Origin: Thiotrichales bacterium HSG1
GTDB taxonomy: Bacteria; Pseudomonadota; Gammaproteobacteria; Beggiatoales; Beggiatoaceae
DNA: 23,053 bases
Direction: 5' to 3'
NCBI GenBank assembly: GCA_030378125.1
Contig: JAUCGN010000005.1
Coordinates: 1-23,053 of the forward strand
The notes below the pieces were generated by a model. That model worked only from the letters and a program-made list of their open reading frames with translations, made no database searches and was not told where the DNA came from. The translations under genes and the position numbers were made by a program. Position 1 is the stretch's first letter, and the number at the start of each line of letters is the position of its first letter. Below, piece after piece: positions 748-23,053 of this stretch.

Positions 748-751
748 TAAC

Positions 752-770: not shown

Positions 771-778
771 CCAAATTT

Positions 779-805: not shown

Positions 806-909
806 AAGATTTATCTTGGCAATTTTCAAATTAAAATTCGGACTCCAAAAAAAGTTCAATTTATACCAATGTGAAGTATACAACTAAATTTCCATTTGAC
901 AAAAACATC

Positions 910-1452: not shown

Positions 1453-1515
1453 TTATCAATGTATTACATAAAAATATTCTATACAAAGCTAGCAAATATC
1501 AAAATATTAACCTCC

Positions 1516-1544
1516 AAAACTATGTTATAGTAGTCAAGTATAAT
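1516..1544 (+). promoter_or_regulatory. Possible proS promoter (-10 only)
   Basis: A perfect TATAAT occurs at 1539-1544, 23 nt before the proS ATG. No good -35 hexamer lies 16-18 nt upstream, and the region is AT-rich, so chance is possible. Confidence 0.25.
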
Positions 1545-1567
1545 ATTCCTATCAAATAAAATAAATC

Positions 1568-3265: not shown

Positions 3266-3268
3266 ATT

Positions 3269-4300: not shown

Positions 4301-4306
4301 AGCATC

Positions 4307-4344
4307 AAAACCTTCCAAGTTTTTAAAATACTAGAAGGTTTTTT
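4307..4344 (+). terminator. Rho-independent terminator after argC
   Basis: The arms AAAACCTTC (4307-4315) and GAAGGTTTT (4334-4342) pair perfectly over 9 bp around an 18-nt loop, and the T-run extends to 4344. The loop is long, so strength is uncertain. The sequence resembles a decayed copy of the palindromic repeat that is perfect at 16820-16852 (AACCTTCCAGG arms). Confidence 0.6.
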
Positions 4345-4353
4345 GGAACTATT

Positions 4354-4372
4354 ACTACTTTGTTTAGGACTA
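4354..4372 (+). repeat. 19-nt repeat, copy B (solo)
   Basis: ACTACTTTGTTTAGGACTA matches 752-770 at 18 of 19 positions but has no transposase remnant beside it. It lies between the argC terminator and the next gene and could be a solo insertion-sequence end. Confidence 0.4.
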
Positions 4373-4398
4373 ATAAAAATTAAGGACCATTTATTTTA

Positions 4399-5127: not shown

Positions 5128-5130
5128 ATC

Positions 5131-5532
5131 ATGTGGGGAAATCGTAAAAGAAAAGTTACTAGAATAGATTCTTTAATAGGACAATACACTAAAATTAAAG
5201 GAGAAGTTTCTTTCAGTGGAGGGTTACATGTTGACGGAATAATTGAAGGCAATATAACGGCCAACAAAGAACAAGAAAGCTCAGTGCTGACCTTGAGTGA
5301 ACAGGGGACTATTAAAGGAGACATACGGGTTCCCAACGTTATTATCAATGGGACTGTACAAGGTAATGTTTATGCGGAAGAACATACTGAACTAGCTTTA
5401 AATGCTCGTATTATTGGCAATGTTTATTATAATTTAATTGAAATGGCTATGGGAGCAGAAGTTAATGGTAGTTTGATTCACAGTGTAAATATGGATAATC
5501 AACCAGTTTTGCCTTTAGAACATAAAGATTAA
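5131..5532 (+). CDS. Bactofilin (polymer-forming cytoskeletal protein)
   Basis: Bactofilins assemble without nucleotide into filaments that organise cell-wall or polar processes. This 133-residue protein has a short basic N-terminus, then a right-handed beta-helix core at about 12-118 with repeating G-x-I/V turns (IKGEVSFSGGLHVDGIIEGN, IKGDIRVPNVIINGTVQGNV, ARIIGNVYYNLIEMAMGAEV). A short polar tail follows. The start is well supported: AAAGGA lies 7 nt before the ATG and overlaps the end of the preceding gene, whose stop is 3 nt away, so the two genes are probably translationally coupled. The usual next gene in this gammaproteobacterial cluster, erpA, is absent; a convergent glycosyltransferase lies there instead. 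Confidence 0.9.
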   Translation: MWGNRKRKVTRIDSLIGQYTKIKGEVSFSGGLHVDGIIEGNITANKEQESSVLTLSEQGTIKGDIRVPNVIINGTVQGNVYAEEHTELALNARIIGNVYYNLIEMAMGAEVNGSLIHSVNMDNQPVLPLEHKD

Positions 5533-7024: not shown

Positions 7025-10000
7025 TTATTCCTGTTTTAAAACCAACAATGTTATATCATCAATTACCTTTTTTTCACCAATATAGTCTTTTACATCAGCA
7101 ACCACAGCTTGTTGTACTTCCAAAGAACTTCCCAACCAATTACCACTAACAACATTGCATAATCGTTCTAAGCTATACTGTTTATTTTCAATATTCTGAG
7201 CTTCAGTGATTCCATCGGTATATAAAACAATACCATCCCCAGCTTGCAGAGTTATTTCTTGATGGGAAGAAAATTCGGCTATATCATCTACCACTCCAAC
7301 CATAAAACCTAGATCAAATGTATCAATTAATTCAACTTTTCCATTTTTTCTGACCAATAAAATTTCTTCATGTTGACCAGTTAATTGCAAGGTTCCATTT
7401 TTATAATCCAACAATGACAAAGTCAAATTTTTATCAGTTTCCATCCGTTGGGCATTGTGATAAACAGTACGATTGACGATATTTAAAAATGTCTCTGGGT
7501 TATCAATACCAGCCAATAATAAAGCTCGTACTGTAGTTTGTACCATCAACATTAATACACCACTTTCCAAACCATGACCAGTTACATCGCCAATCCCAAT
7601 TTTAATATGCCCATCGTGGTTCAAAACCTCATAATAATCTCCACCAACTTCTTCTGCTGGTTCCATAAAACCGGCAATATCTAAATTATCAATCTGTTGT
7701 AATTCTGTTTCTTTAGGTAAAACCATATGCTGCAATTGTTTAGCAATATCTAATTCAGCACCCATTCGCATGTTTTCCTGCTTCAATTGTTCATTTAAAT
7801 AAGTGATTTCTTGATTTGCGGTAGCTAATTGTCCAGTTCTTTGTTCCACTTTATCTTCTAACGTTTTATATAGTAAGGAGTTTTCTAATGAAATGGCAGC
7901 TTGAGAAGAAAACATATTAATCATTTTAAGTCTTGCTTCTGTAAATGCACCTTCTATCAAATTATTTTCTAAATATAATAAACCAATGAGTTTTCCTTGA
8001 TGCAAAATTGGACTGCATAAAATTGATTTAAGTCGATATTGCTGGATATAGCTATCTTTAGTGTAAATTCCTTCTTGCATAGCATTCATCAATACCACTG
8101 GCTCACGAGTTCTCACTACATAATTGACAATAGGAATTGGTAAATGTCCTTCTACAGGAATAGATTGTAAAATAGTAATTTCATCAACACCAAGCTTTCC
8201 CTCTGCTTCAATCACCCACTTTGACTCACCTTTTCCAAGTATTAATAAACCTCTTTCAGCCCCAGCATTTTCAATCACAATATGCATCATTTTTTCTAGC
8301 AATTTGCTTAAAACAATCTCTCCGGCTAAAGTATGGGATGCTTTGGTGATGCTATCTAAATCTAATATTGTTGAAGTTTGTAACTTAGTGGAAACTGAAG
8401 TCATTAATGTGTTTATTGTTGCAGTTATGTTTGGAACAAAAGTTTTAGCCACAGTTAGTAATTGTGGATATTTTGCTTCTAACTCAGATACTTTAGCATT
8501 AGCACCCCACAATTTATATAAATAATGAGCTTTTAATAAATAAACATTGCTAAACTCTTCTTTAGCTTGACTTAACCAAAATTTACCAGCTAATTCATTA
8601 CCAAGGGCTTCAAATTGAATATATTCATTTTCTTTAGCAGTTTGAATGGCTAAATCGTATAGGTGCATAACTCTACCAATTTCTTCATTGGAAATACGTG
8701 CAAATTCAGCTTTTACGATAAGATATTGCTGTGAATAGTTTGGAGGATAAATATCTGCCCAAGCTTTCATTTTGGCAATAAATTCTTTAAGTCTTTGCAA
8801 ATACAGTTCTTTTTTAACAGAATTTTCATAAACTGCTGTTATTGCCAAAGCGTTGTATAAATAAAGCTCTACCGTAAAATTTTGATGGGTTGCTAAAATA
8901 GCATTCGCTAATTGAAATTGTGGATAAATATCAAGCAATTCTTCATAATATTCAAAGAAATACAAACTTCTTATTTTGGTGGCATAAAGCCATCCAGCAA
9001 AAATCGGAATTTTACCAAATTGTTTCCATGTTTCCTCTTCATTAAAATTAACTGTACTCAAAGTCTTATTATCCAGAGTTTGGCCTTGCAAGTGTAAAGT
9101 TGCTTGTATAATTCCAATTTTAAAAATATCTCTGACAAAATTATTGGTTTTTGCCATATAATTCATCGTATCCAATGCTTCTGTGTACACTTTCTGGAGA
9201 TTTTCACCACGAAAAAAACGAGTTGATGTTTTCCACATCAGATTAAAACCAGCGAAAGCAATGTCTCCAGAATCTAAACCATTATGAAAAGCTTTTTCAA
9301 ATTCGGTGGGAAGGTATTTTAAATGAGTATGCCAATGACTCCAAAAAATATGATAAAACATCATAGTACGACATGATATTGATTTATCATCAAATTGTTC
9401 AATTAATTTCATACCAAGTTTACCAAATTTTACTCCTTCTTGAATTTTATTCAAAGCACTCGCCATAAAAAAACCAAGACTTGCATATCCAACTGGTGAA
9501 AAGCGGGTATTACCATATTTCAACGATAGATTAGTTTGTTTATAGGCCAATGCACCATGAAGTAATTGTTCTCCAGCAAAAAATGCTGACATCATTGTGC
9601 TGTTTATGATTTTGGTTGTAGTAATTATCTGTGGATCAGAAGTTAATTTATTTTCAATGGTAAGATTGTCTATATCAATTTGGCGGCTTTCATTTGCTAT
9701 AAAAACATGTAATTGCTCCGAAGAATCAGGAATATAAATATCCAACAATTTGAGGGCTTTTTTACCAGTAGATAAAACCTCAGTTAATTTACCAAACAGT
9801 TGATATTGTTCAATTTGGATAACATAAACTTGTGCTTTTTCTAAAGAGGTTTGTGCTTTTTTTAGTAAAATGGAATAATATTTTTCTGCTCTCTGATAAT
9901 TTTTATTTAAAAGAGCAATCTCAGCACAAGCAAAATAGATTCTATAAGTCAAATTATATTCCAATTGCCACGCATTTTTGGGTAATAATTTAATACTGAT

Positions 10001-12286
10001 AGCAAGATATTTCTCAGCCGGTTTATAAGCTGTAGCAAACTTGGCTTTTTTGGTTGCTTGCAAATTCAATTCGGCTAACTGTAATTTTTCTTGTACGTTG
10101 GTGATTAGAGTCCAAGCAATATTGAAATGATCAACAATTTTAAAAATTTCATTATCCCATTCTTCAGGAGATAAATTGGCTAACAATAACCGTCCAATTT
10201 TTAGATGCACTGCTTTTTTCTGATTATCATCAATTAAAGCATAAGCAGCTTGCTGTACTCTATCATGCAAAAATTTGAATTGAGATTTTTCAGCAGTATC
10301 AAGGTGTTTATAATTTTCATCTAAAGGCTGAACAAGTTCTTCCTCAATTGCTGGACGTAATATGGATATGGTTTCATTTTGCTCAGAAATAATATTTAAT
10401 GTGGATAAATCAAATTGATTACCGATACAAGCTGCTAACTGCAATATCATTGAAGTTTTTTCCGGCAATTTATCAATCTTATTGGCCATCAACTCAACCA
10501 CATTATCAGTGATATTTTGGGCAGTTATCTGTTTAACATCCCATTGCCATTGTTGCTGTTTAAAACTCAATAATTCCTCTTTATACAAGGTATGCAAAAA
10601 ATGATGGGTAAAAAAAGCATTGCCTTGAGTTTTTTGGTAAACTAAATCGGCTAAGGTTTGACTGGTTTTACATTGTAAAGTGTCTTGTAATAAATGATTA
10701 ATATCAGATAGTTGCAAATTAGATAATTCAATGTGGTTAACAATAGCGTTAGCTTTTTGCAGTTCCTCCACCACCATGATAAATGGATGGCTGCTATCAA
10801 CTTCGTTATCACGATAAGCCCCAATAATCAACAGATGTAGAATCTGATCGTCAAGCATGATATTTTTAAGTAAACTCAATGAAGCGGAATCTATCCATTG
10901 CAAATCATCAATAAACAAAATAAAAGGATGTTTTTTATCACATAATGCTTTAACAAAATTTAGAAAAAATATCTGAAATCTATTTTGAGCTTCAGTAGGT
11001 CCAACTTCTACAACGGTAGGTTGTTTACCTATAACTAGCTCTAAATCCGGAACCACATCAATTATAATTTGGCCATTATTACCAACTGCGTCTAATATTT
11101 TATTTCTCCAATTTGCTAAAAGTTCGGTATTTTCCGTCAGTAAATAATGACAAAATTCATTAAATGCTTGTGTTATGGCAGAATAAGGAATATCTTTTTG
11201 GAGTTGATCAAACTTACCCGCTGCAAAATAACCCTTCTTTTTGGTCATCGGTTTGTGGACTTCATGGACTATTGCTGTTTTGCCCACTCCAGAATAGCCT
11301 GCAACTAACATCATTTCAGTCTTACCATCACTAACTCGTTCAAAAGCTTGTAATAAAATATCAACTTCATTATCACGGCCATAAAGTTTTTGCGGAATTT
11401 GAAATTGCCCGGAAAAATCTTTTTGAGCTAAATCAAAAGACAAACATGCCATATCTTCAAGACCTGTCAAGTTTTCTTGGATTTTTTCTAAATCTGCTTT
11501 AACTCCAAAAGCTGATTGATAACGGTCTTCAGCATTTTTAGCCAATAGTTTCATTATAATATCAGAAACAATTGGGGGGATTTCAGGATTGATTTCACAC
11601 GGTGGAATTGGGATTTTAGCAATATGACAATGGATTAATTCCATTGTATCCTTAGTAGTAAAGGGTAATCGCCCACAAAGCAATTCATAAAAAGTAACTC
11701 CTAACGAATATAGGTCGGTGCGATAATCAATACTGCGGTTAATACGGCCAGTTTGCTCTGGAGAAATATAAGCCAACGTACCTTCTAGTTGTTCTGGATT
11801 GCTAAGAGTAGGAATTTCTCGTGACAAACGGCTGGCAATTCCGAAGTCAATAATTTTTACTTGTTTAGTGATTGGTTCCCACACGATATTGCTAGGATTA
11901 ATATCTTTGTGAATAACATTGGCAGCGTGAATATTACCCAATCCTTCAGCTAGTTGAATAGCAAATGAAAAAAAATCTTTTAAATTAAATACCCGTTCTA
12001 GCATTAATTGCTTAAGGGAATTTCCATCAAAGTCCTCCAAAATTATAACCAAAGTATTCTGATATTTTTCAATATCGTAGGTCTTAATAATACCGTTTGA
12101 GTCTAAATTACTAGTTATTTCAACTTCTTGTTGATAACGATTTAATTCGGTTGGACTTGGATAGTCCTGTTTGAGCATTTTTAGAATAACTGGCTGGTTG
12201 TCATTGTTGCGATATCCACGATAAATGAGTGAATTAGCACTTTCATAAATTTGACTATCTATTTTATAGTTGGGTAAAATTAGCAT
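7025..12286 (-). CDS. Giant Ser/Thr kinase - AAA ATPase - GAF - PP2C phosphatase (array gene 1)
   Basis: This 1753-residue cytoplasmic signalling protein starts with a Hanks-type Ser/Thr kinase domain (about 8-268): Lys36 in VILKMLK, HKDINPSN with Asp128 and Asn133, DFG at 147-149 and SPE at 175-177. The glycine loop is not canonical. An AAA_16-type ATPase follows, with Walker A GYSGVGKT at 330-337 and Walker B FILFIDD ending at Asp460-461. A long helical, TPR-like region covers about 700-1270, and a GAF domain about 1317-1465. A coiled coil leads into an RsbU/SpoIIE-type PP2C domain (about 1515-1753). Its metal-binding Asp1550 (GGDYY), Asp1567 (GDVTGHG), the Asp of LYTDGITEA and the DDITLLV end are all present. 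The architecture matches HstK-like multidomain kinases of cyanobacteria and sulfur bacteria, with a phosphatase in place of the usual histidine kinase. AAAGGA lies about 10 nt before the ATG. The 3' end is fused to IS630 debris: the last residue is Glu where paralogues have Lys or Arg. Confidence 0.93.
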   Translation of the reverse strand: MLILPNYKIDSQIYESANSLIYRGYRNNDNQPVILKMLKQDYPSPTELNRYQQEVEITSNLDSNGIIKTYDIEKYQNTLVIILEDFDGNSLKQLMLERVFNLKDFFSFAIQLAEGLGNIHAANVIHKDINPSNIVWEPITKQVKIIDFGIASRLSREIPTLSNPEQLEGTLAYISPEQTGRINRSIDYRTDLYSLGVTFYELLCGRLPFTTKDTMELIHCHIAKIPIPPCEINPEIPPIVSDIIMKLLAKNAEDRYQSAFGVKADLEKIQENLTGLEDMACLSFDLAQKDFSGQFQIPQKLYGRDNEVDILLQAFERVSDGKTEMMLVAGYSGVGKTAIVHEVHKPMTKKKGYFAAGKFDQLQKDIPYSAITQAFNEFCHYLLTENTELLANWRNKILDAVGNNGQIIIDVVPDLELVIGKQPTVVEVGPTEAQNRFQIFFLNFVKALCDKKHPFILFIDDLQWIDSASLSLLKNIMLDDQILHLLIIGAYRDNEVDSSHPFIMVVEELQKANAIVNHIELSNLQLSDINHLLQDTLQCKTSQTLADLVYQKTQGNAFFTHHFLHTLYKEELLSFKQQQWQWDVKQITAQNITDNVVELMANKIDKLPEKTSMILQLAACIGNQFDLSTLNIISEQNETISILRPAIEEELVQPLDENYKHLDTAEKSQFKFLHDRVQQAAYALIDDNQKKAVHLKIGRLLLANLSPEEWDNEIFKIVDHFNIAWTLITNVQEKLQLAELNLQATKKAKFATAYKPAEKYLAISIKLLPKNAWQLEYNLTYRIYFACAEIALLNKNYQRAEKYYSILLKKAQTSLEKAQVYVIQIEQYQLFGKLTEVLSTGKKALKLLDIYIPDSSEQLHVFIANESRQIDIDNLTIENKLTSDPQIITTTKIINSTMMSAFFAGEQLLHGALAYKQTNLSLKYGNTRFSPVGYASLGFFMASALNKIQEGVKFGKLGMKLIEQFDDKSISCRTMMFYHIFWSHWHTHLKYLPTEFEKAFHNGLDSGDIAFAGFNLMWKTSTRFFRGENLQKVYTEALDTMNYMAKTNNFVRDIFKIGIIQATLHLQGQTLDNKTLSTVNFNEEETWKQFGKIPIFAGWLYATKIRSLYFFEYYEELLDIYPQFQLANAILATHQNFTVELYLYNALAITAVYENSVKKELYLQRLKEFIAKMKAWADIYPPNYSQQYLIVKAEFARISNEEIGRVMHLYDLAIQTAKENEYIQFEALGNELAGKFWLSQAKEEFSNVYLLKAHYLYKLWGANAKVSELEAKYPQLLTVAKTFVPNITATINTLMTSVSTKLQTSTILDLDSITKASHTLAGEIVLSKLLEKMMHIVIENAGAERGLLILGKGESKWVIEAEGKLGVDEITILQSIPVEGHLPIPIVNYVVRTREPVVLMNAMQEGIYTKDSYIQQYRLKSILCSPILHQGKLIGLLYLENNLIEGAFTEARLKMINMFSSQAAISLENSLLYKTLEDKVEQRTGQLATANQEITYLNEQLKQENMRMGAELDIAKQLQHMVLPKETELQQIDNLDIAGFMEPAEEVGGDYYEVLNHDGHIKIGIGDVTGHGLESGVLMLMVQTTVRALLLAGIDNPETFLNIVNRTVYHNAQRMETDKNLTLSLLDYKNGTLQLTGQHEEILLVRKNGKVELIDTFDLGFMVGVVDDIAEFSSHQEITLQAGDGIVLYTDGITEAQNIENKQYSLERLCNVVSGNWLGSSLEVQQAVVADVKDYIGEKKVIDDITLLVLKQE
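11483..11590. repeat. 108-nt tract identical to 16858-16965
   Basis: These 108 bases in gene 1, encoding the end of the kinase domain, are identical to 16858-16965 in gene 2, whereas sequence on both sides diverges at once. This fits recent gene conversion between paralogues. Confidence 0.85.
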
Positions 12287-12417
12287 AATTATTATTTCCT
12301 TTAAGGTTGATTTACAAAGATTTGATCCCGAAAATCCTTTAATCTTGTAAATCCTGATTCTGACAATTAAAAAATATTTAAATCAATAAATTATTCTGTA
12401 CAAAAAATAAAAACTAG
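12287..12417 (-). promoter_or_regulatory. Leader of gene 1, duplicated hairpin-containing region (copy 1)
   Basis: This 131-bp spacer is almost identical to 17662-17793, with one substitution and one A-run length change. On the plus strand, GATTTACAAAGATT (12309-12322) and AATCTTGTAAATC (12341-12353) form an imperfect 13-bp stem with one bulge and an 18-nt loop. The hairpin lies just upstream of the ribosome binding site in the gene 1 leader. Its sequence (CAGGATTTACAAGATTAAAGGA on the coding strand, split here by the stem) resembles a short repeat I recall from Beggiatoa and other bacteria. No clear -35/-10 pair could be fixed. Confidence 0.6.
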
Positions 12418-15400
12418 CTATTTCTGTTTTAAAACCAACAAAGTAATATCATCCAAAATTTCCCGTTCACCAATGTAATCTTTAACATTAGCAATCACAG
12501 ACTGTTGTACTTGTTTGGCATTACCAGCCCAATTTTTACTAACAACTTCACATAGTTTCTCTAAACCATATTGTATATTTTCAATATTTTGAGCTTCAGT
12601 AATGCCATCAGTATATAAAACAATACCATCTCCAGATTGCAATGATATTTCTTGATGGGATGTAAATTCAGATACATCATCAACTACTCCAACCATAAAA
12701 CCTAAATAAAATGTGTCAATTAACTCAACTTTTCCATCTTTTCTAACTAATAAAATTTCTTCATGTTGACCGGTGATTGTCAAATTACCAGCATGATAAT
12801 CCAACAATGATAAAGTTAAATTTTTATCAGTTTCCATACGTTGAGTATTGTGATAAACAGTACGGTTGACAATATTTAAAAACTGCTCTGGGTTATCAAT
12901 TCCAGCTAATAATAAAGCCCTCACCATAGTTTGTACCATTAACATCAACACGCCACTTTCCAAACCATGCCCAGTTACATCACCAATGCCAATTTTAATA
13001 TGACCATCGTGATTTAAAACTTCATAATAATCACCACCAACTTCCTCTGCTGGCTCCATAAATCCAGCAATATCTAAATTATCAATTTGTTGTAATTCAG
13101 TTTCTTTCGGTAGAACCATTTGCTGCAATTGTTTCGCAACATCTAATTCTGCACCCATACGAACATTTTCTTCTTCTAAACGTTCATTAAGCAAAGTAAT
13201 TTCTTGATTGGCAGTGGCTAATTGTTCAGTACGTTGTTCTACTTTTTGCTCCAACGTTCTATACAATAAGGCATTTTCCAAAGAAATTGCTGCTTGGGAA
13301 GAAAGCATATCAATCATTTTAAACCTAGCCGGAGTAAATGCACCTTCGATAAGATTATTTTCTACATACAATACTCCGATAAGCTTTCCTTGATGCAAAA
13401 TAGGACTACATAAAATTGATTTAAGCTGATGTTGGAGGATGTAACTATCTTCAGTATAAATACCTTCTTGTATCGCATTAGCTAATACAACTGGTTCATG
13501 ACTTCTGGTCACATAATTGACAATCGAACAAGGTAAATTGCCTTCTAAAGGAATTGATTGTTGGATAGTAACTTTTTTGGAATCCAGTAATCCTTCTGCT
13601 TCAATAACCCACGAATCATCTTGTTTAAGAATCAATAAACCTCTTTCAGCCTCAGCATTTTCAATCACAATATGCATCATTTTTTCTAACAATTCGCTAA
13701 GGACTATTTCTCCGGCCAAAGTTTGGGAGGCTTTGGTGACACTTTCTAAATCCAATATTGTTGAAGTTTGCAACTTATTGGAAACTGAGGTCATTAATGT
13801 GCTTATTGTTGCAGTTATATTTGAATCGAAAGTTTTAACTACAGCTAATAATTGTGGATATTTTACTTCTAAATCCGCTACTTTTGCCAAAGCCCCCCAT
13901 TGTTGGTATAGATAATGAGTTTCTTTAAGGTAAATTTGAGCAATTTTTTCATTACCTTGTTCTAACCAAAACTTAGCTGTTAGTTCATTAGCAAGTGCTT
14001 CTTCTTGAAGGTATTGATTTTCTTTAGCACCAGCAATAGCTTTATCATACAATTCGATAGCTTGCCAATTTTGTTCTTGTACTCTAGCTTTTTCTGCTTC
14101 AACTAAATCATATTTATGCTGGAAATTCATTGGGGCATGTTCAGCCCACAACTTCATTTTTTCTTGATTTGCAGTCACTTTGGTTAAAACATTTTCTTGT
14201 TCTTGCTGAGATAAATTCGGATAGACTGCTAATTTAGCGAGAGAATCATAAAAATGAAATACAGGAACCATAATCAGGCTTATAGCACCATCTAAGTGCT
14301 GTTCTGCTATTTCAGCATTTTCAATTGCAGTGATATATTCTTGAAATAGATAATGTAAAAAACTTTTGTAAAAATGTAAAAAATAAATTGACGTTCTATC
14401 ATTTGCTTGTTGATGAACGGGTAATTGAATATTCTCATCATAAGCTTTACCATTCAAAATACACGGATTATTAGAATCCCCTCTTAAATTCAAAACAGTT
14501 TGCCAAGATATATTAAGCCAATTAAGGGGAGCTTTTTGTTTGAGGCGATTTAGTGAAGAACTATACATAGCCATTTCCTGTTCAAGTATTACAAGTTGTT
14601 TATTGGCAAAAAAAGAATAGGAAGTATACATTTGTAAAGAATAGCCACCATATTCGAGATTGCCAATTTCTAAACCAGTTTGGTAATTTTCTAGTAATGG
14701 TTGTAATGTTTTTCCAAGATGTTCTTTCCAAAACCTAATATGCCCATTAAATATATGAACAATATTAATTTTAAGTCTTTTTTCATTCAATCGTTCTAGC
14801 AAATTTAAAGCAAGTCGGCCAAATTGATAACCTGATTCAATATCAGAAACTACACCACAAAGAATAAGTCCATAAAAAGCATAAGAATAACTTGATTCAG
14901 AACAATTGCCATGTTCAAGCGATAAATTAACTTGTTTAAGTACCAATAAGACCATCAACCCCGGTGATGCAACAAAAGCTGCTGCACTAACTGCTTCCAT
15001 GATACGCATTGCTAATATCTTATCTAGGTTTGTCATAATTGGTAAGTCAATAATAGTTTGAATTGATTTACCAGACAAAAAAGCTTGTGTTTCCTGTAAA
15101 GTTAATCCAATATCCTCTTGAGTAGGTTCTGTTGGTAGATTAATACTCAATTGCTTAAGAAAAATTAATGCAGTTTTAATAGCTTCTTGTTGTTGATTTT
15201 GGGCTACATAAGCTGATATTTGAATTTTATAGATTTTAGCTTCATCGGATAAAGTCCGTGTTCTTTGCAACACTATTTGAACCAGTTGTTCCATCTGTTC
15301 AAAATTACCACTCAGATAAGCTGCTTCTACCATTTCGGTAAAGATATTGAGTGTCAAATCATAATCAGTTTCCCAACTTTTTTCTGGTAAGCATTCTTTA

Positions 15401-17661
15401 CCAATTGTTAAATAGTTGACTGCTGCTTCATAGGCATTTGCCAGCTTTGCTTTTTGCCCAGCCATCAAATTTAGTTTTGCTATTTCAAGTCTTTCAGTTG
15501 ATTCACGAATCAATTCAATGCTGTTATTAAAATGTCCTACAACTTCAAATACTTTATCTTCCAAAGAGTCAGTATTTTTTAATAACAAACGACCAATTTG
15601 TAAATGGATATTTTTCCTATGAGCGTCATCAACCTGTGCATAAGCAGCTTGTTGAACTCTGTCGTGTAAAAATTTAAACTGAGAATTTTCATCTAAAGGC
15701 TGAATAAGTCCTTCAATAATTGCCGGTTGTAATTTTTTTAAAGCTTTTTCCTGATTTAATTCAGCAATAATAACCAACATAAACAAATCAAATTGATTGC
15801 CAATACAAGCCGCTAACCGTAATATTGCCGAGGTTTTCTCTGGCAACTTATCAATTTTGTTAGCCATCAGTTCAACCACATTAGCAGTAATATTTTGAGA
15901 TTTTATCTGTTCAATATTCCATTGCCATTGTTCAGAATTAAATTGCAATAATTCTTCTTCGTATAAAGTTTGTAAAAATTGATGAGTAAAAAACGCATTA
16001 CCTTGAGTTTTTTGGTAAATTAATTTGCCAAGCAATTGAATTGCTTCACATGATAAAGTATCTTGTAATAAATGATTGATATCCTCTAGTTGCAAGTTTG
16101 TTAACTCAATGGTGTTAATAATGACATTTGCTTTTTGAAGTTCAGAAACTGCCATAATAAATGGGTGAGTATTGTCAACTTCATTATCCCGATAAGCACC
16201 TATAATCAATAAATTCTGGATTTCATCATCAAGCATAATATTTTTCAATAAACTCAATGAAGCTGAATCCACCCACTGTAAATCGTCAATAAACAAAATA
16301 AATGGATGTTCTTTATCACATAATACTTTGACAAAATTTAAGAAAAATATTTGAAAGCGATTTTGAGCTTCGGTAGGTCCAACTTTAACCACTGCTGGTT
16401 GTTTACCGATAATTAACTCTAAATCAGGAACAACATCAATAATAATTTGACCATTATTACCTATTGCATCTTTGATTTTAGTCTGCCAATTTGCTAAAGT
16501 TTCGGAATTTTCCAGCAACAAATACCGGCAAAATTCATTAAATGCTTGAGTGATGGCGGAATAAGGAATGTTTTTCTGGAATTGGTCGAATTTACCGGCT
16601 GCAAAATAACCATTCTTTTTGGTCATCGGTTTGTGGACTTCATGAACTATTGCTGTTTTACCAACTCCCGAATAACCACTTACCAACATCATTTCTGCTT
16701 TGCCATCACTGATTCTTTCAAAGGCTGCTAGTAAAGTTTCAACTTCAGTTTCCCGTCCATAAATTTTTTGCGGAATTTGAAATTTACCAGAAAAATCATG
16801 TTGGGCCAGTTCAAACTGCAAACCTTCCAGGTCTTCAAGACCTGGAAGGTTTAAAACTTTTTCTAAATCTGCTTTAACTCCAAAAGCTGATTGATAACGG
16901 TCTTCAGCATTTTTAGCCAATAGTTTCATTATAATATCAGAAACAATTGGGGGGATTTCAGGATTTACTTCACATACTGGAATTGGAGTTTTAGCAATGT
17001 GACAATGAACTAATTCCATTGCATCAGTGGCAGTAAAAGGTAGTTTCCCAGTGAGCATTTCATAAAAAGTTATTCCTAATGAATACAAATCGGTATGATA
17101 ATCAATACTACGATTAATACGACCAGTCTGTTCGGGAGATAGATAAGCTAAAGTCCCTTCTAATTGTTCAGGATTGGTAAGAGTAGGGTTTTCTCGTGGT
17201 AAGCGACTGGCAATTCCAAAGTCAATAATTTTTACTTGTTTGGTCTTTGGATTAATTATTATGTTACTGGGATTAATATCTTTGTGGATAATATTGGCTG
17301 CATGAATATAACCCAATCCTTCAGTAATTTGAATAGCAAATGAAAAAAAATCTTTTAAATTAAATGCCCGTTCTAGCATTAATTGTTTAAGGGAACTTCC
17401 ATCAAAATCCTCCAAAATTATAACCAAAGTGTTCTGATATTTTTCAATATCGTAGGTCTTAATAATACCGTTTGAGGCTAAATTACTAGTTATTTCAAAT
17501 TCTTGTTGATAACGATTTAGTTCGGTTGGACTTGGATAGTCCTGTTTGAGCATTTTCAGAATAACTGGCTGGTTGTCATTGTTGCGATATCCACGATAAA
17601 TGAGTGAATTAGCACTTTCATAAATTTGACTATCTATTTTATAGTTGGGTAAAATTAGCAT
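12418..17661 (-). CDS. Giant Ser/Thr kinase - AAA ATPase - GAF - PP2C phosphatase (array gene 2)
   Basis: The 1747-residue paralogue of gene 1 has the same order: Ser/Thr kinase (Lys36, Asp128 in HKDINPSN, DFG at 147-149, SPE at 175-177), then an AAA ATPase (Walker A GYSGVGKT at 329-336, Walker B FILFIDD). TPR-like helices, a GAF domain (about 1312-1455), a coiled coil and a PP2C domain (Asp1544 in GGDYY, Asp1561 in GDVTGHG, C-terminal DDITLLV) follow. All catalytic residues look intact. Residues 271-281 (NLPGLEDLEGL) are encoded by a perfect palindromic repeat in the linker between kinase and ATPase. The N-terminal ~110 codons are about 97% identical to gene 1 in DNA, while the central helical region is poorly conserved with gene 1 and much closer to gene 4. 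It probably senses through the GAF and repeat regions, but no ligand can be inferred. AAAGGA precedes the ATG by about 10 nt in a 132-bp leader shared with gene 1. Confidence 0.93.
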   Translation of the reverse strand: MLILPNYKIDSQIYESANSLIYRGYRNNDNQPVILKMLKQDYPSPTELNRYQQEFEITSNLASNGIIKTYDIEKYQNTLVIILEDFDGSSLKQLMLERAFNLKDFFSFAIQITEGLGYIHAANIIHKDINPSNIIINPKTKQVKIIDFGIASRLPRENPTLTNPEQLEGTLAYLSPEQTGRINRSIDYHTDLYSLGITFYEMLTGKLPFTATDAMELVHCHIAKTPIPVCEVNPEIPPIVSDIIMKLLAKNAEDRYQSAFGVKADLEKVLNLPGLEDLEGLQFELAQHDFSGKFQIPQKIYGRETEVETLLAAFERISDGKAEMMLVSGYSGVGKTAIVHEVHKPMTKKNGYFAAGKFDQFQKNIPYSAITQAFNEFCRYLLLENSETLANWQTKIKDAIGNNGQIIIDVVPDLELIIGKQPAVVKVGPTEAQNRFQIFFLNFVKVLCDKEHPFILFIDDLQWVDSASLSLLKNIMLDDEIQNLLIIGAYRDNEVDNTHPFIMAVSELQKANVIINTIELTNLQLEDINHLLQDTLSCEAIQLLGKLIYQKTQGNAFFTHQFLQTLYEEELLQFNSEQWQWNIEQIKSQNITANVVELMANKIDKLPEKTSAILRLAACIGNQFDLFMLVIIAELNQEKALKKLQPAIIEGLIQPLDENSQFKFLHDRVQQAAYAQVDDAHRKNIHLQIGRLLLKNTDSLEDKVFEVVGHFNNSIELIRESTERLEIAKLNLMAGQKAKLANAYEAAVNYLTIGKECLPEKSWETDYDLTLNIFTEMVEAAYLSGNFEQMEQLVQIVLQRTRTLSDEAKIYKIQISAYVAQNQQQEAIKTALIFLKQLSINLPTEPTQEDIGLTLQETQAFLSGKSIQTIIDLPIMTNLDKILAMRIMEAVSAAAFVASPGLMVLLVLKQVNLSLEHGNCSESSYSYAFYGLILCGVVSDIESGYQFGRLALNLLERLNEKRLKINIVHIFNGHIRFWKEHLGKTLQPLLENYQTGLEIGNLEYGGYSLQMYTSYSFFANKQLVILEQEMAMYSSSLNRLKQKAPLNWLNISWQTVLNLRGDSNNPCILNGKAYDENIQLPVHQQANDRTSIYFLHFYKSFLHYLFQEYITAIENAEIAEQHLDGAISLIMVPVFHFYDSLAKLAVYPNLSQQEQENVLTKVTANQEKMKLWAEHAPMNFQHKYDLVEAEKARVQEQNWQAIELYDKAIAGAKENQYLQEEALANELTAKFWLEQGNEKIAQIYLKETHYLYQQWGALAKVADLEVKYPQLLAVVKTFDSNITATISTLMTSVSNKLQTSTILDLESVTKASQTLAGEIVLSELLEKMMHIVIENAEAERGLLILKQDDSWVIEAEGLLDSKKVTIQQSIPLEGNLPCSIVNYVTRSHEPVVLANAIQEGIYTEDSYILQHQLKSILCSPILHQGKLIGVLYVENNLIEGAFTPARFKMIDMLSSQAAISLENALLYRTLEQKVEQRTEQLATANQEITLLNERLEEENVRMGAELDVAKQLQQMVLPKETELQQIDNLDIAGFMEPAEEVGGDYYEVLNHDGHIKIGIGDVTGHGLESGVLMLMVQTMVRALLLAGIDNPEQFLNIVNRTVYHNTQRMETDKNLTLSLLDYHAGNLTITGQHEEILLVRKDGKVELIDTFYLGFMVGVVDDVSEFTSHQEISLQSGDGIVLYTDGITEAQNIENIQYGLEKLCEVVSKNWAGNAKQVQQSVIANVKDYIGEREILDDITLLVLKQK
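16820..16852. repeat. Perfect 33-nt palindromic repeat inside gene 2
   Basis: Two 16-nt arms (16820-16835 and 16837-16852) are exact reverse complements around a single central base, with arms reading AAACCTTCCAGGTCTT. The repeat fills 11 codons in frame (NLPGLEDLEGL). Gene 1 has a decayed version at the same place (TCTTCAAGACCTG at 11454-11466). A related decayed element forms the argC terminator. Confidence 0.9.
16858..16965. repeat. 108-nt tract identical to 11483-11590
   Basis: This is the gene 2 partner of the identical tract in gene 1. It begins 5 nt beyond the palindrome at 16820-16852. Confidence 0.85.
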
Positions 17662-17793
17662 AATTATTATTTCCTTTAAGGTTGATTTACAAAGATTTGA
17701 TCCCGAAAATCCTTTAATCTTGTAAATCCTGATTCTGACAATTAAAAAATATTTAAATCAATAAATTATCCTGTACAAAAAAATAAAAACTAG
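17662..17793 (-). promoter_or_regulatory. Leader of gene 2, duplicated hairpin-containing region (copy 2)
   Basis: The same leader as before gene 1, with stem arms at 17684-17697 and 17716-17728 on the plus strand. A candidate -35 (TTGTAC, plus positions 17773-17778) lies 17 nt from a poor -10 (TAAATA, 17750-17755), so promoter assignment is tentative. Because the stop codon of gene 3 lies directly upstream, read-through from gene 3 is also possible. Confidence 0.55.
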
Positions 17794-20250
17794 CTATTTC
17801 TGTTTTAAAACTAACAAAGTAATATCATCCAAAATTTCCTGTTCACCAATATAATCTTTAACATTACTAATCACAGACTGTTGTACTTGTTTGGCATTAC
17901 CAGTCCAATTTTTACTAACAACTTCACATAATCTCTCTAAACCATATTGTATATTTTCAATATTTTGAGCTTCAGTAATGCCATCAGTATATAAAACAAT
18001 ACCATCTCCAGATTGCAATGACATTTCCTGATGAGAGGTAAATTTAGATATATCTTTCTCTACTCCAACCATAAAACCTAAATCAAATGTATCAATTAAT
18101 TCAACTTTTCCATCTTTTCTAACTAATAAAATTTCTTCATGTTGTCCAGTTAGTTGCAAAGTTCCATTTTGGTAATCCAATAAAGACAGAGTCAAATTTT
18201 TATCAGTTTCCATCCGTTTGGTATTATAATAAACAGTACGATTGACAATATTTAAAAACTGTTCTGGATTATCAATACCAGCAAGTAGTAAAGCCCGAAC
18301 TGTAGTTTGTACCATTAACATCAACACACCACTTTCCAAACCATGCCCAGTTACATCGCCAATCCCAATTTTAATATTACCGTCGTGGTTCAAAACTTCA
18401 TAATAATCTCCACCAACTTCGTCGGCAGGTTCCATAAAACCAGCAATATCTAAGTTTTCAATCTGTTGTAATTCAGTCTCTTTAGGTAAAACCATTTGTT
18501 GCAATCGTTTAGCAATATCTAGTTCTGTACTCATACGCATATTATCAGCAGATAAAGTTTTTAAAGACAGGTGAGTTTTTACTCTCGCTAACAATTCTTC
18601 TTTGGAAATTGGTTTAGTCATATAATCATTAGCACCAGCCTCTAAACCTTGGACTAAATCTTCTACTTGGTTTTTAGCGGTTAATAATAATATTGGCATT
18701 TCAATAGCTTGCCATTTTTTTCTAAGCTTGTGGGTAACTTCATAACCGGTCATCTGTGGCATCATAACATCTAATAAAATTACATCTGGTATAAAACCAT
18801 CATCAATAAATTTTAAAGCTTCGTGACCAGAAGTTGCTTGGACAATATTGTAATTTTGTAAAGATAAATAATTATGTAGAACTTGTAAATTTACCGGTTC
18901 ATCATCAACAATTAAAATCTTAAAATTGGTTGTATTATGTGCTACAGACTGTTCTTTTGAATCAGTATTGGTATGGATAATTTTATGAATTATTTTATTT
19001 GAGGATATTGGGACTGCTAGTTCACTTGAAGAAGGTAAAGTAAAAATAAATTTTGAACCAACTTCCAAAACAGATTCTACCCAAATTTTACCACCATGTA
19101 ATTCCACTAATTTCTTAGTAACTGCCAAACCTAAACCAGTTCCACCATATTCTCTGGAAGTGGAACCTTCTGCCTGTTCAAAAGACTCAAAAATACTAGT
19201 TAGTTTATTGGTGGGAATGCCAATTCCATCATCTGCAACCGTAATTTGGATTTGCTGCTCATTAATTGTTTGAGCTGAGATAGTTATATTTCCCTGTTTG
19301 GTAAATTTAATTGCATTACCAATCAAATTATGCAGAATCTGTTGTAAACGATTTTCATCGGCAAATACAGCAGGTAAACTTGGTTCAATTTCATTAACAA
19401 AATTTATTTCTTTCTGGATTACCAATGGCTGACTAAGAGTCAATACCATATCAATGATAGAATTTAATTCTAGAGGTTTTAATTGCAAGCCTATGTCGTG
19501 ATGCCTTATTTTAGAAAAATCAAGAATATCATTAACTAAAGATGATAAACGTTTACCACTGTTAGCAATCATGGCTAAGTTAGTTTTAGTTTGCTTATTT
19601 AGTTCTCCAGTGGCTCCATCCATTAAGGATTCAGCAATACCAATAATACCGTTAAGGGGAGTACGTAACTCATGAGAAGTATTAGCTAAAAATTCATCTT
19701 TAAGCTTATCCATTTGTTGCATTTGCAGAGTTTGGAAAGCTTGCTTAGACAACATAGTAGCAAATAAAAACAAAGAATTAGAAATATTTTCAAATTGTTG
19801 TTTTGACATTTTTGGAACTTCGGCTAATGCATCCTTAAACTGTTCTTTATCTGCACCAATTTCATCAGCATATTGAAGCATTTTTTCATCATTTTGCTCT
19901 TCACTTCGTACTTGTCCAATCAACCAATTAGCAACATGTTGATTACCAACACCTATGCTAATACTGGAGCCAGCGTCCCAAAGACCGCCACTTAAACAAG
20001 GTTGTATTATAGGACCGTTTAAATTTTGTCTACCAATCAATGAATCAGATTCCATACAATTAGCCAGCCCTTTTGGAGTTTGGCGGATAACATCCATACA
20101 CAAACGACAAAAATTACTTGGTTTGGTAATTGGAGTACCATCAGGCTTAGTAATAATTGAGGCAATATTGCAGGCTGATGCAAATGCATCTTGTATTGCT
20201 TGCAATTCTTGTAAGTCAAATAACTCTTCAAAAGAAATATTGTCATTCAT
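17794..20250 (-). CDS. PocR-domain hybrid histidine kinase - receiver - PP2C phosphatase (array gene 3)
   Basis: The 818-residue protein begins with a PocR-type sensory domain (about 12-175) with conserved cysteines 48, 51, 65 and 85 (FCRLC, GLANC, IIQPC) and a GQVRSEEQ end. PocR domains bind small hydrocarbon derivatives or act as redox/metal sensors; the ligand here is unknown. HisKA follows with phospho-acceptor His193 (SHELRTPLNG). HATPase_c has Asn308/Asn312, DDGIGIP at 340-346 and GGTGLGL at 369-375. A receiver domain has Asp449-450, phospho-acceptor Asp494 and Lys546. The RsbU/SpoIIE-like PP2C domain (about 572-818) has Asp615, Asp632 and the DDITLLV end. There is no transmembrane segment, so it should be cytosolic. 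The likely logic is autophosphorylation, transfer to the internal receiver and control of the adjoining phosphatase. The start is clear: AGAGG lies 7 nt upstream and overlaps the stop of gene 4, which ends 5 nt before this ATG, indicating translational coupling. Confidence 0.93.
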   Translation of the reverse strand: MNDNISFEELFDLQELQAIQDAFASACNIASIITKPDGTPITKPSNFCRLCMDVIRQTPKGLANCMESDSLIGRQNLNGPIIQPCLSGGLWDAGSSISIGVGNQHVANWLIGQVRSEEQNDEKMLQYADEIGADKEQFKDALAEVPKMSKQQFENISNSLFLFATMLSKQAFQTLQMQQMDKLKDEFLANTSHELRTPLNGIIGIAESLMDGATGELNKQTKTNLAMIANSGKRLSSLVNDILDFSKIRHHDIGLQLKPLELNSIIDMVLTLSQPLVIQKEINFVNEIEPSLPAVFADENRLQQILHNLIGNAIKFTKQGNITISAQTINEQQIQITVADDGIGIPTNKLTSIFESFEQAEGSTSREYGGTGLGLAVTKKLVELHGGKIWVESVLEVGSKFIFTLPSSSELAVPISSNKIIHKIIHTNTDSKEQSVAHNTTNFKILIVDDEPVNLQVLHNYLSLQNYNIVQATSGHEALKFIDDGFIPDVILLDVMMPQMTGYEVTHKLRKKWQAIEMPILLLTAKNQVEDLVQGLEAGANDYMTKPISKEELLARVKTHLSLKTLSADNMRMSTELDIAKRLQQMVLPKETELQQIENLDIAGFMEPADEVGGDYYEVLNHDGNIKIGIGDVTGHGLESGVLMLMVQTTVRALLLAGIDNPEQFLNIVNRTVYYNTKRMETDKNLTLSLLDYQNGTLQLTGQHEEILLVRKDGKVELIDTFDLGFMVGVEKDISKFTSHQEMSLQSGDGIVLYTDGITEAQNIENIQYGLERLCEVVSKNWTGNAKQVQQSVISNVKDYIGEQEILDDITLLVLKQK

Positions 20251-20255
20251 TTTAT

Positions 20256-23053
20256 TTACCTCTGTTTTAAAACTAACAAAGTAATATCATCCAAAATTTC
20301 TTGTTCACCAATGTAATCTTTAACATCAGCAATCACAGACTGTTGTACTTGTTTGGCATTACCAGCCCAATTTTTACTTATAACCTCACACAGATGTTTC
20401 AAACCATATTGTTCTTCATCCATATTTTGGGTTTCAGTTATTCCATCCGTATAAAGCACAATCCCATCTCCGGGTTGTAATTTCAGTTCTCGATGAGAGA
20501 TAAATCTAGTTATATCAGATACCATCCCTACCGAAAAACCCAACTCAAGAGTATCAATTAATTCAATTTTACCACCTTTTCGCACCAATATTACTTCTTC
20601 ATGTTGACCAGTGAGATGTAAAGTTCCATTTTGATAATCCAACAATGATAGAGTTAAGTTCTTATCCGTCTCCATCCGCTTGGCATTGTGATAAATGGTG
20701 CGATTAACAATATTTAAAAATGTCTCAGTATTGTCAATACCAGCTAATAATAAAGCCCTAACAGTGGTTTGCACCATCAACATCAATACACCACTCTCCA
20801 AACCATGCCCAGTTACATCTCCAATCCCAATTTTAATATGACCACCATGATTTAAAACTTCATAATAATCTCCGCCAACTTCAGCAGCCGGTTCCATAAA
20901 TCCAGCAATATCTAAATCTTCAATTTGTTGTAATTCAGTTTCTTTGGGTAAAACCATCTGTTGTAATTGTTTAGCTACATCCAGTTCTGCACCCATCCTA
21001 ATATTTTCTTCTTCAAGTCTTTTATTTAGCAAAGTTATTTTTTTATTTGCAGTGGCTAATTGTTCGGTACGTTGTTTTACTTTATCTTCTAACGTTCTAT
21101 ACAATAAGGAATTTTCCAAAGAAATAGCAACCTGTGAGGAAAGCATGTCAACTATTTTTAACCTAGCTGGAGTAAATGCACCTTCCATTAGATTATTTTC
21201 CAGATATAACAATCCGATAAGTTTAGCTTGATGTAAGATTGGACTGCATAAAACTGATTTCGTTTGCTGTTGTTGGATGTAATCATCTCCGGTATAAATT
21301 TTTTCCTGTACAGCATTGGATAATACTATTGATTCACAAGTTCTTAATACATAATTAATTATAGAAATTGGCAAATTACCGGCCAATGATATAGATTGTA
21401 AAGTAGTTATTTCATCAATACCTAACTTGCCTTCCGCTTCAATCGCCCAGTCAGAGTTATCTTTCTTGAGGATCAATAAACCTCTCTCCGCCCCAGCATT
21501 TTCAATCATAATCGACATCATTCTTTCCAACAATTTATCAAGTACAATCTCCCCGGCTAAAGTTTGTGAGGCTTTAGTTATGCTACCTAAATCTAATACT
21601 GTTGAGGCTAATGCTGTTGAGGTTTGTAAATTACTGGAAATACCTCCCCTTAATATAGTTGAAGTTATATCTGAATTAGCAGATATTGCTGTATTAGTTA
21701 ATAATTGGGGATATTTTGCTTCTAAATCATTAACTTTACTAGTAGCTCCCCATTGTTGATATAAGTAATGGGCCTCTCTCAAATAAGTTTGAAAAAATTT
21801 CTCCATACCACGTTGAGAATAAAATTTAGCTGCTAATTCATAAGCTAATGCTTCTTCTTGGATGTACTCATTCTCTTTAGCTCCAGCGATAGCTTTTTCA
21901 TACCATTCTATAGCTTCCAATTTTCCTAAAACTCGTGCCTTTTCAGCTTCTACTAGATCATATTTGTGTTGAAAGTTCATGGGAGCATGTTTAGCCCAAT
22001 TTTGCATCTTTTCTTGGTTGGTAGATACTTTGGTTAAAACAGCTTCTTGTTCTAGTGAAGACAAGGTTGGATACAATGCTAATCGTACAAGAGAATCATA
22101 GAAATGATATATGGCTACTGGCAGTAAACCAATAACACCATCTAAATACTGTTCTGCTATTTCTACGTTTTTAACCGCAGATGCATATTCTTGAAATAGA
22201 TAATGCAGGATACATTTGTTGAGATGTAAAAAGTGAATTGCTGTTCTATCATTTGCCTGTTCATGGAGTGGTAATTGAATGTTTTCATCATAAGCTGTTC
22301 CCACTAGAATACATGGATTGTTTGAATGACCCATTAAGTTTAAGATAACCTGCCAATACAAGTTATGCCAATTACTTTGAGTTTTTTGTTTAAATCTAGT
22401 AACTACATGATTGTAACTAGCAATTTCTGGTTCTAAAATAGTGAGTTGTTTACCAACAAAATAAGAATAATAAGAACGAAAACAGATAGAATAGCTGGCA
22501 AATTCAATATTTCCAATCTCTAAACTAATTTGGTAATTATCTAACAAGGATGGTAATACTTCTCTAATATGCTCTTTCCATATTCTAATCTGGACATTGA
22601 ATAGATAGGTTACCATTGTTTTTAATTTTTTTTCTCCAGATCGTTTCAACAAACTCAGACCTAATTTACCAGTTTGATAGCCTGACTTAATATCATAAAC
22701 TATGCCGCATAGAAAGGCTCCATAACAAATATAAGAAAAACTTGATTCAGAAGCATTTCCGTATTCAAGTGACAATTCAACTTGTTTAAGTACCAATAAA
22801 AGCTGTAACCTTGGTGATACAAAGAAAGCTGGACCACCTGCTGCAACCATGATGCGCATTGCCAACATTATATTGGTATTAGTCATCATCGGTAAGTCGA
22901 TAAGAGATGAAATGGATTGTTTAGATAAAGAAACTTGCATTTCATTAAGAGCTAACCCTACATTTTCGGAAGTAACTTCATTAACATCTTCTGAAAAATT
23001 AATACCCAACTGATTTAAAAAAATTAATGCTATTTTGACAGCCTCTTGTAACT
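20256..23053 (-). CDS. Giant signalling protein, C-terminal part: TPR-like - GAF - PP2C phosphatase (array gene 4, cut by window edge)
   Basis: The frame is open to the right window edge (931 visible codons). A TTG at 23007-23009 is not a real start: the codons before it encode QEAVKIALIFLNQLGI, which aligns with QEAIKTALIFLKQLSI at about residue 827 of gene 2. About 825 residues (kinase and AAA ATPase, by analogy) should therefore lie beyond the window. The visible part has a TPR-like helical region similar to gene 2 (for example AMRIM…LLVLKQVELSLEYGNASESS). A GAF domain lies at about 496-645 of the visible protein, then a coiled coil, then an RsbU/SpoIIE-like PP2C domain (about 690-931) with GGDYY, GDVTGHG, LYTDGITET and DDITLLV. 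A 15-nt tandem duplication before the GAF domain adds STALA/STVLD. It is the promoter-proximal visible gene of the array and overlaps the ribosome binding site of gene 3. Confidence 0.9.
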   Translation of the reverse strand, partial: LQEAVKIALIFLNQLGINFSEDVNEVTSENVGLALNEMQVSLSKQSISSLIDLPMMTNTNIMLAMRIMVAAGGPAFFVSPRLQLLLVLKQVELSLEYGNASESSFSYICYGAFLCGIVYDIKSGYQTGKLGLSLLKRSGEKKLKTMVTYLFNVQIRIWKEHIREVLPSLLDNYQISLEIGNIEFASYSICFRSYYSYFVGKQLTILEPEIASYNHVVTRFKQKTQSNWHNLYWQVILNLMGHSNNPCILVGTAYDENIQLPLHEQANDRTAIHFLHLNKCILHYLFQEYASAVKNVEIAEQYLDGVIGLLPVAIYHFYDSLVRLALYPTLSSLEQEAVLTKVSTNQEKMQNWAKHAPMNFQHKYDLVEAEKARVLGKLEAIEWYEKAIAGAKENEYIQEEALAYELAAKFYSQRGMEKFFQTYLREAHYLYQQWGATSKVNDLEAKYPQLLTNTAISANSDITSTILRGGISSNLQTSTALASTVLDLGSITKASQTLAGEIVLDKLLERMMSIMIENAGAERGLLILKKDNSDWAIEAEGKLGIDEITTLQSISLAGNLPISIINYVLRTCESIVLSNAVQEKIYTGDDYIQQQQTKSVLCSPILHQAKLIGLLYLENNLMEGAFTPARLKIVDMLSSQVAISLENSLLYRTLEDKVKQRTEQLATANKKITLLNKRLEEENIRMGAELDVAKQLQQMVLPKETELQQIEDLDIAGFMEPAAEVGGDYYEVLNHGGHIKIGIGDVTGHGLESGVLMLMVQTTVRALLLAGIDNTETFLNIVNRTIYHNAKRMETDKNLTLSLLDYQNGTLHLTGQHEEVILVRKGGKIELIDTLELGFSVGMVSDITRFISHRELKLQPGDGIVLYTDGITETQNMDEEQYGLKHLCEVISKNWAGNAKQVQQSVIADVKDYIGEQEILDDITLLVLKQR
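21593..21622. repeat. 15-nt tandem duplication in gene 4
   Basis: CTAATACTGTTGAGG and CTAATGCTGTTGAGG lie head to tail with one mismatch, encoding STVLD and STALA in the linker before the GAF domain. Gene 2 has only one unit at this place. Confidence 0.85.

Follow-up and report, generated by a model that had tools for sequence, protein, structure and literature searches.

In Pseudomonas aeruginosa, the SiaABCD system consists of a PP2C phosphatase (SiaA), a kinase (SiaB), a phosphoprotein (SiaC) and a stalk-bearing diguanylate cyclase (SiaD), and the available text of one study describes SiaC as turning on SiaD by binding to motifs of the SiaD helical stalk (PMC8457831). Here we analyse computationally contig C392 of Thiotrichales bacterium HSG1 (JAUCGN010000005.1), a stretch of 23053 bp referred to as the window, in which four successive open reading frames on the minus strand (7025-23051) each end in a SpoIIE-type PP2C domain. 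We consider it likely that this array belongs to a many-input partner switch resembling SiaABCD, running from the array through a kinase (K) and a small STAS-like protein (S) to an effector with an N-terminal stalk. The genome is a draft of 2.22 Mb in 457 contigs, 63% complete, and was placed with the Beggiatoaceae.

Like SiaABCD, the system combines a PP2C, a GHKL kinase and a small STAS-like protein, and a motif-bearing effector gene often comes next. Unlike in SiaABCD, NCBIfam assigns K and S to other families, the tails score far under the SiaA cut-off and there are many PP2C genes per K-S pair. The RsbU/RsbV/RsbW and SpoIIE/SpoIIAA/SpoIIAB systems share the SpoIIE-type catalytic domain and, judging from predicted structures, the same kinase and substrate folds. 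In the filamentous cyanobacterium Nostoc punctiforme, HmpU, HmpV and HmpW are presented, in the accessible text, as a PP2C-kinase-STAS switch whose STAS protein is itself the output (PMC6495340, PMC8256260), with hmpV unlinked from hmpU/hmpW by locus tag (PMC10581220) and the effector downstream of HmpV described as undefined (PMC6495340). We liken the two systems by organization, not by sequence; K and S are adjacent here, whereas hmpV is unlinked there. Finally, as far as the available text of the respective papers goes, a phenotype in iron recovery is described for slr1658 of Synechocystis, a putative two-component system gene (PMC7555055), and both slr1658 and slr1659 count as proteins of unknown function (PMC4614683); unlike the system described here, neither account names a PP2C partner or a stalk effector in that text.

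Sensor phosphatases with a common output domain

The four tails match the Pfam SpoIIE model with E values of 7.9e-34 to 2e-35 and 117.7-122.9 bits, compared to a cut-off of 25, and all of them contain the motifs GGDYY, GDVTGHG, YTDGITE and DDIT, whose Asp residues are metal-binding in this family. Because the tail of gene 1 is 79-85% identical to those of genes 2, 3 and 4, the likeness is not due to chance, and a preliminary description of the window was correct that four consecutive same-strand genes end in nearly the same phosphatase with intact Asp motifs. It had further assigned the front ends to three kinase/AAA/repeat/GAF giants, one of them partial, and one PocR protein. This holds for genes 1 and 2, in which the kinase Lys, HKD and DFG motifs and the ATPase P-loop and Walker B are intact, and for the PocR protein of gene 3. 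For gene 4, neither a kinase nor an AAA domain was found within the part lying in the window, the front being beyond the contig end; because this part is 49-87% identical to gene 2 in every 100-residue bin that they share, gene 4 looks like the back half of a third kinase/AAA giant. Transcription would proceed from gene 4 to gene 1, with a gap of 5 bp between genes 4 and 3 and spacers of 132 bp and 131 bp before genes 2 and 1, respectively.

A search with the gene 2 tail in five genomes of the genus separated two groups of PP2C, with full-length identities of 50-100% and at most 29% (short fragments aside). The first group, hereafter array-type, comprises the four window tails and a fifth PP2C on contig C10 of HSG1, in which GGDYY, GDVTGHG, YTDG and DDIT are likewise intact. 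There are 32 array-type matches in the five genomes, five of them in HSG1. Nine further array-type proteins of the genus were scanned: one has a PocR-histidine kinase-receiver front end, four combine HAMP, histidine kinase and receiver, one has PAS, and in three no other Pfam domain was found at E<=1e-5. Array-type PP2C is present in 21 of 40 relatives, with up to 21 copies per genome.

Tandem arrays of this subfamily as such are not new, since two or three clustered copies are found on single contigs elsewhere (G004 C270, G008 C54, L161, L190, L191, L197 and L219). In the three-copy giant array of G004 C270 (L100:77-5132), the first gene is split into the overlapping frames 77-3661 and 3639-5132. 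The kinase-AAA-GAF-PP2C giants are likewise an ordinary, very large protein group: the GAF-PP2C end of gene 2 is common to 4027 proteins at E<=1e-3 (7994 scored), and about 112 of 120 listed proteins sharing this end, by our count, also have the kinase and AAA_16; such a giant is also listed for Beggiatoa leptomitoformis (P0029).

Kinase and STAS-like proteins of the slr1658 and slr1659 families

A search with the gene 3 tail retrieved cyanobacterial loci, and behind the PP2C gene of some of these lie genes for a GHKL protein of about 200 aa (K) and a STAS-like protein of about 115 aa (S). Searched with profiles built from these cyanobacterial PP2C neighbours (alignments A3 and A4), the HSG1 genome contains exactly one K and one S, side by side on contig C333, and both exceed the NCBIfam cut-offs for the slr1658 and slr1659 families (Table 1). 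K also lies just over the threshold of Pfam DUF6272 (28.1 vs 26.6), a family that includes the SiaB homologue of contig C134.

K was found in 21 of the 40 relatives, which are precisely the 21 having array-type PP2C. Within the family, 21 genomes have both PP2C and K and four have neither (p 7.9e-5 by Fisher test, without correction for kinship), and K is present in all 45 genomes of a set selected for array-type PP2C. K is found at most 1.5 kb downstream in 17 of 75 testable PP2C genes, and S comes directly after K in 51 of the 53 K genes with room for it. Beyond these groups, PP2C, K, S and an effector with the TEHAD motif discussed below are consecutive in an Acidobacteriota metagenome-assembled genome (L199), and a Desulfococcaceae genome has PP2C and K. 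Array-type PP2C very probably pairs with K and S.

Because searches against PDB sequences gave no match for the K profile at E<=10 and, for the S profile, seven weak STAS/anti-sigma-antagonist matches plus one acetyltransferase (E 0.02-0.25), we adopted a comparison of predicted folds. The predicted fold of K, a GHKL anti-sigma-type kinase fold, matches SiaB and SpoIIAB, and anti-sigma kinases lead among the best 50 Foldseek rows; the predicted fold of S, a STAS/SiaC fold, matches SiaC and RsbV. By family model K and S are not RsbW and RsbV; S by its fold and K by a weak family match are closer to SiaC and SiaB.

The preliminary description had proposed partner switching with RsbW-type kinases and STAS antagonists, to be looked for genome-wide. 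The kind of circuit was right and, by family model, the partners were not: a classical RsbV/RsbW pair was not found in HSG1 with Pfam models, for which the only STAS match is a MlaE-type (lipid) permease and the best of five HATPase_c_2 matches (E 3e-6, the sole one listed) is a histidine kinase on C134. The genome thus seemed at first to have no STAS or anti-sigma protein, a picture that was reversed by the profile matches on C333. A classical RsbU-RsbV-RsbW sigma-factor switch is accordingly very improbable. It would suit the SpoIIE-type phosphatase of the tails, and in a congener (G004 C190) an RsbW-like kinase gene (E 2.3e-21) does lie between a PP2C gene and the gene of a 122-aa protein. 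However, that PP2C is just 26% identical to the gene 2 tail, and in HSG1 no RsbW-like kinase is listed and the sole Pfam STAS is of the MlaE type, an absence that counts for less because the genome is 63% complete.

The three C190 genes (L116:286-2586), with a PP2C of another subfamily, form in themselves a classical-looking switch beside the K-S one; the 122-aa protein appears by eye to be a STAS protein and is not among the Pfam STAS matches.

SiaC was our initial candidate for the shared substrate and was dropped because it does not follow array-type PP2C across genomes. The tails would then be SiaA-like phosphatases acting on SiaC and opposed by SiaB, and the two genes are indeed adjacent on C134. 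Moreover, SiaC is present in all five genomes of the genus, and among the models listed for genes 1, 2 and 4 and the C10 protein SiaA is the sole one of a phosphatase (57.9-67.3 bits; for gene 3 it is not among the best 25 of 159 model rows, which are filled by other models). Yet the scores of genes 1, 2 and 4 (57.9, 63.2 and 61.4) compare with a cut-off of 700 bits for the SiaA model NF038263. SiaC is found in just 6 of the 45 genomes with array-type PP2C and is missing in 10 of the 21 relatives with this subfamily, and G012 has SiaC without this PP2C; the tally for relatives (12 of 40, or 11 of the 21 with PP2C) includes G014, with two weak hits resembling S. Furthermore, the PP2Cs beside SiaC in L013, L017, L021 and L022 have DC[TA]GHGVPGA instead of GDVTGHGLESG. 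Taken together, we regard SiaC as a decidedly unlikely substrate of the tails.

The C134 genes form a second, separate switch, with a gene order conserved in all five genomes of the genus. On C134 (L119:2-2419) and in L014, L015, L018 and L020, a histidine kinase whose N-terminal helix contains LLVKMSDKQQ is accompanied by SiaB, SiaC and a gene that we take to be RodA-like. The same N-terminal module opens other Beggiatoaceae proteins beside SiaC or SiaB-SiaC (L013:1-1225, L025:1-1329, L023:740-1718 and L017:2966-3351), three of which continue into what is presumably a PAS-like stretch; at least two have an apparent nucleotide-cyclase-type domain further on, in place of the GGDEF domain of SiaD. 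A profile of the module had no SiaD chain among its PDB matches at E<=10. Because SDKxQ resembles the SiaC-binding residues S82-D83-R84-x-Q86 of SiaD, SiaC may drive a histidine kinase at C134; this likeness is drawn from the residue numbers in the available text of PMC8457831 and is not claimed as homology.

Array-type PP2C outnumbers K: there are 140 PP2C matches vs 52 K matches across 21 genomes, and five array-type PP2C vs one K-S pair in HSG1. These counts argue against a further alternative, in which each PP2C would be insulated and have as its substrate a separate S paralogue or the kinase domain of the same polypeptide, with the likeness of the tails stemming from recent duplication and recombination. 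Such recombination among neighbours is demonstrable (see below), congeners have two or three K genes, and genes 1 and 2 do have a kinase domain with its key motifs. Gene 3, however, has no Ser/Thr kinase, and tail identity is held between genomes even where the repeat middle drops to about 30%. We consider insulated tails unlikely.

A candidate stalk effector and the proposed circuit

The gene next to S carries the motif L[EQ]xxLx5HxD (typically LEISLETxTEHAD) in 21 of 51 K-S pairs, compared to 11 of 637 other open reading frames of at least 150 aa in these loci, which were all chosen for K or PP2C, so that the rate is not a genome-wide one. Six of the 11 are the same effector genes in overlapping loci and four are no more than about 4 kb from a K gene; the last appears to be a chance match. 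Several proteins have two or three copies of the motif, and SiaD has two. Unlike SiaD, the four effectors that were scanned are two histidine kinases (that of HSG1 on C333 and L272), one protein with PAS (L206) and one with GGDEF (L171), all with a motif other than that of SiaD. We propose the TEHAD-like region as a candidate docking stalk for S, an assignment to which we give even chances.

L251:1997-3544 and L254:2-1447, which lie directly beside K, contain three and two LEISLETxTEHAD-like copies, respectively; their K genes are the two of 53 that S does not directly follow.

Computation shows the PP2C subfamily, the co-occurrence, the adjacency, the predicted folds and the enrichment of the motif. 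From these we infer a circuit, including its substrate, phosphosite, stalk docking, output direction and use of one S by four tails, in which the array would be the input layer of a SiaABCD-type partner switch with partner families of its own. The sensor proteins would each set, through their different front ends, the activity of their PP2C tails, and the tails would dephosphorylate one STAS-fold phosphoprotein, S, at a Ser of its conserved N-S-S-G motif, Ser61 or Ser62. K, as a dedicated GHKL kinase and remote kin of SiaB, would phosphorylate S. Unphosphorylated S would bind the histidine kinase/receiver protein whose gene lies beyond S on C333, at its N-terminal stalk with the LEISLDLVAEHGD motif, and this binding would switch the histidine kinase output, as SiaC does for SiaD. 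Unlike in RsbU/RsbV/RsbW systems, HSG1 has no detected RsbW-type kinase or Pfam-level RsbV, and the circuit probably ends not in a sigma factor but in a stalk-bearing histidine kinase (no search for sigma factors was made).

The preliminary description had several signals converge on one phosphoprotein encoded elsewhere. Several inputs and an S on another contig agree with this, and we slightly favour a single S on C333 serving all four tails; there may nevertheless be one to three phosphoproteins, because four congeners carry two or three K genes each and the draft is 63% complete.

For the same two reasons several S targets are possible, which is one of a number of points that weigh against the circuit. 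The array itself is not adjacent to K-S (C392 vs C333), and K is not adjacent in 58 of the 75 testable PP2C genes. Because co-occurrence in the 40 relatives is clade-structured, the Fisher value is optimistic. The 45 genomes were picked for having this PP2C, and the test on them is one-sided; the two sets also overlap in at least one genome, G022 being the same as G042 by identical K coordinates. The adjacency profiles were partly derived from the very loci counted, and S was searched genome-wide in HSG1 alone and by adjacency elsewhere. The S of HSG1 reaches only 12.5 bits with the Pfam STAS model. For K, the best 50 Foldseek rows do not include SiaB, whose match emerges only in a second fold comparison, in which rows less than 1 Z apart are ties. 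Finally, the next gene has no stalk motif in 30 of 51 K-S pairs (14 of these have no next gene of at least 150 aa within 700 bp in the available stretch), four of the 21 motif-bearing cases (L243, L247, L258 and L267) are orthologous to one another within the genus, and a plain coiled-coil signature might account for the motif.

Recombination within the array and implications

Gene 3 has a whole-length orthologue in the PocR gene of G004 C240, with a steady third-position identity of 0.56-0.70; that orthologue has no further PP2C gene as a neighbour. Over the final 60 codons of the gene 3 tail, by comparison, third-position identity is 0.96 to gene 2 and 0.90 to gene 4, and in the next 60 codons it is 0.87 to gene 2. 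Similarly, genes 1 and 2 match at 0.86 over their first 250 codons and at 0.98 over the first 53. The two most diverged regions of their middle are 29-44% identical; in these regions gene 1 is 69-73% identical to its counterpart in G004 C270. The two near-identical blocks of Table 1 run continuously from tail through spacer to kinase start, with 93-100% identity in 60-base bins and an exact run of 212 bases.

Because of these shifts in codon identity, the spacer match and the continuous block, we conclude that tail, spacer and head were recently exchanged between neighbours, the route presumably being gene conversion or unequal crossing-over. This claim is based on those three lines and not on the tail tree, in which gene 3 groups with gene 2 (96/91) and then gene 4 (82/88) rather than with its PocR orthologue; the tree is partly resolved, with 13 of 24 inner branches open, unsettled bootstrap and at most 27 of the 32 genus tails included. 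Output and start have thereby stayed constant around a sensory middle that has diverged. The pattern would be compatible with selection for a common substrate, and also with recombination alone.

Table 1. Coordinates and features of the array genes, their putative partners and the repeated segments. Positions without a contig name refer to the window.
Feature	Position	Strand	Description
Gene 1 (g1), 1753 aa	7025..12286	-	Ser/Thr kinase 11516-12244, AAA_16 ATPase 10823-11389, repeat-like middle, GAF 7886-8311, PP2C
SpoIIE/PP2C domain, gene 1	7034..7615	-	Pfam PF07228
Gene 2 (g2), 1747 aa	12418..17661	-	Ser/Thr kinase 16891-17619, AAA_16 16201-16764, repeat-like middle, GAF 13279-13701, PP2C
SpoIIE/PP2C domain, gene 2	12427..13008	-	Pfam PF07228
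Gene 3 (g3), 818 aa	17794..20250	-	PocR 19738-20226, HisKA 19501-19701, HATPase_c 19030-19359, receiver (Response_reg) 18577-18918, PP2C
SpoIIE/PP2C domain, gene 3	17803..18384	-	Pfam PF07228
Gene 4 (g4), 931 aa, front lost at contig end	20256..23051	-	Repeat-like region, GAF 21117-21542, PP2C
SpoIIE/PP2C domain, gene 4	20265..20846	-	Pfam PF07228
K	C333:814-1422		NCBIfam slr1658 family: NF052618/NF047703, 215.3 vs cut-off 200 and 202.6 vs cut-off 100
S	C333:1413-1757		NCBIfam slr1659 superfamily NF047705, 121.4 vs cut-off 100
Histidine kinase/receiver protein, candidate effector	C333:2107-4464		About 350 bp beyond S; N-terminal LEISLDLVAEHGD motif
Spacer upstream of gene 1	12287..12417	-	One substitution and one 1-base indel vs gene 2 spacer in 132 columns
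Spacer upstream of gene 2, other copy	17662..17793	-	Aligned to gene 1 spacer
Near-identical block, copy A (ends approximate)	17334..17994	-	End of gene 3 PP2C tail, spacer, gene 2 kinase start
Near-identical block, copy B (ends approximate)	11958..12618	-	End of gene 2 PP2C tail, spacer, gene 1 kinase start

Two further observations concern the surroundings. At 2-418 on the minus strand of the window, a protein cut by the contig end has cysteine pairs and a helix-turn-helix look, and we take it to resemble the start of an IS1-type transposase. On contig C267 (L009:5002-8279), an 823-aa membrane-type protein with an apparent C-terminal Ser/Thr kinase, judged by eye, is directly followed by a 269-aa PP2C (SpoIIE 21 bits, weak); the two are perhaps a kinase/phosphatase pair.

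As far as the open-access literature shows, the wiring and the partners are new, and we found no paper there that links slr1658/slr1659 to PP2C and a stalk effector. Comparison across genomes suggests that the control circuit is also found in filamentous cyanobacteria. More broadly, and with somewhat less than even confidence, we put forward that the PP2C subfamily, K, S and the TEHAD-stalk effector may constitute a distinct four-part switch of filamentous cyanobacteria and giant sulfur bacteria. A short, portable stalk motif would plug one phosphoprotein into effectors as different as histidine kinases, PAS proteins and diguanylate cyclases. In a single genome, as many as about 20 sensor phosphatases would converge on a few such switches, and recombination between neighbours would keep the output alike while the sensory middle diverges.

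The analysis puts forward a specific pair of partners for this large group of sensor phosphatases, with up to 21 members per genome among the relatives searched, and makes the convergence of many inputs on one phosphoprotein countable through the ratio of PP2C to kinase matches. It offers a role for slr1658 and slr1659, regulators of little known mechanism in the available accounts, and a testable STAS output other than a sigma factor, namely the stalk motif of the neighbouring effector. A similar stalk target could apply to HmpV of N. punctiforme, whose effector the accessible text leaves undefined (PMC6495340).
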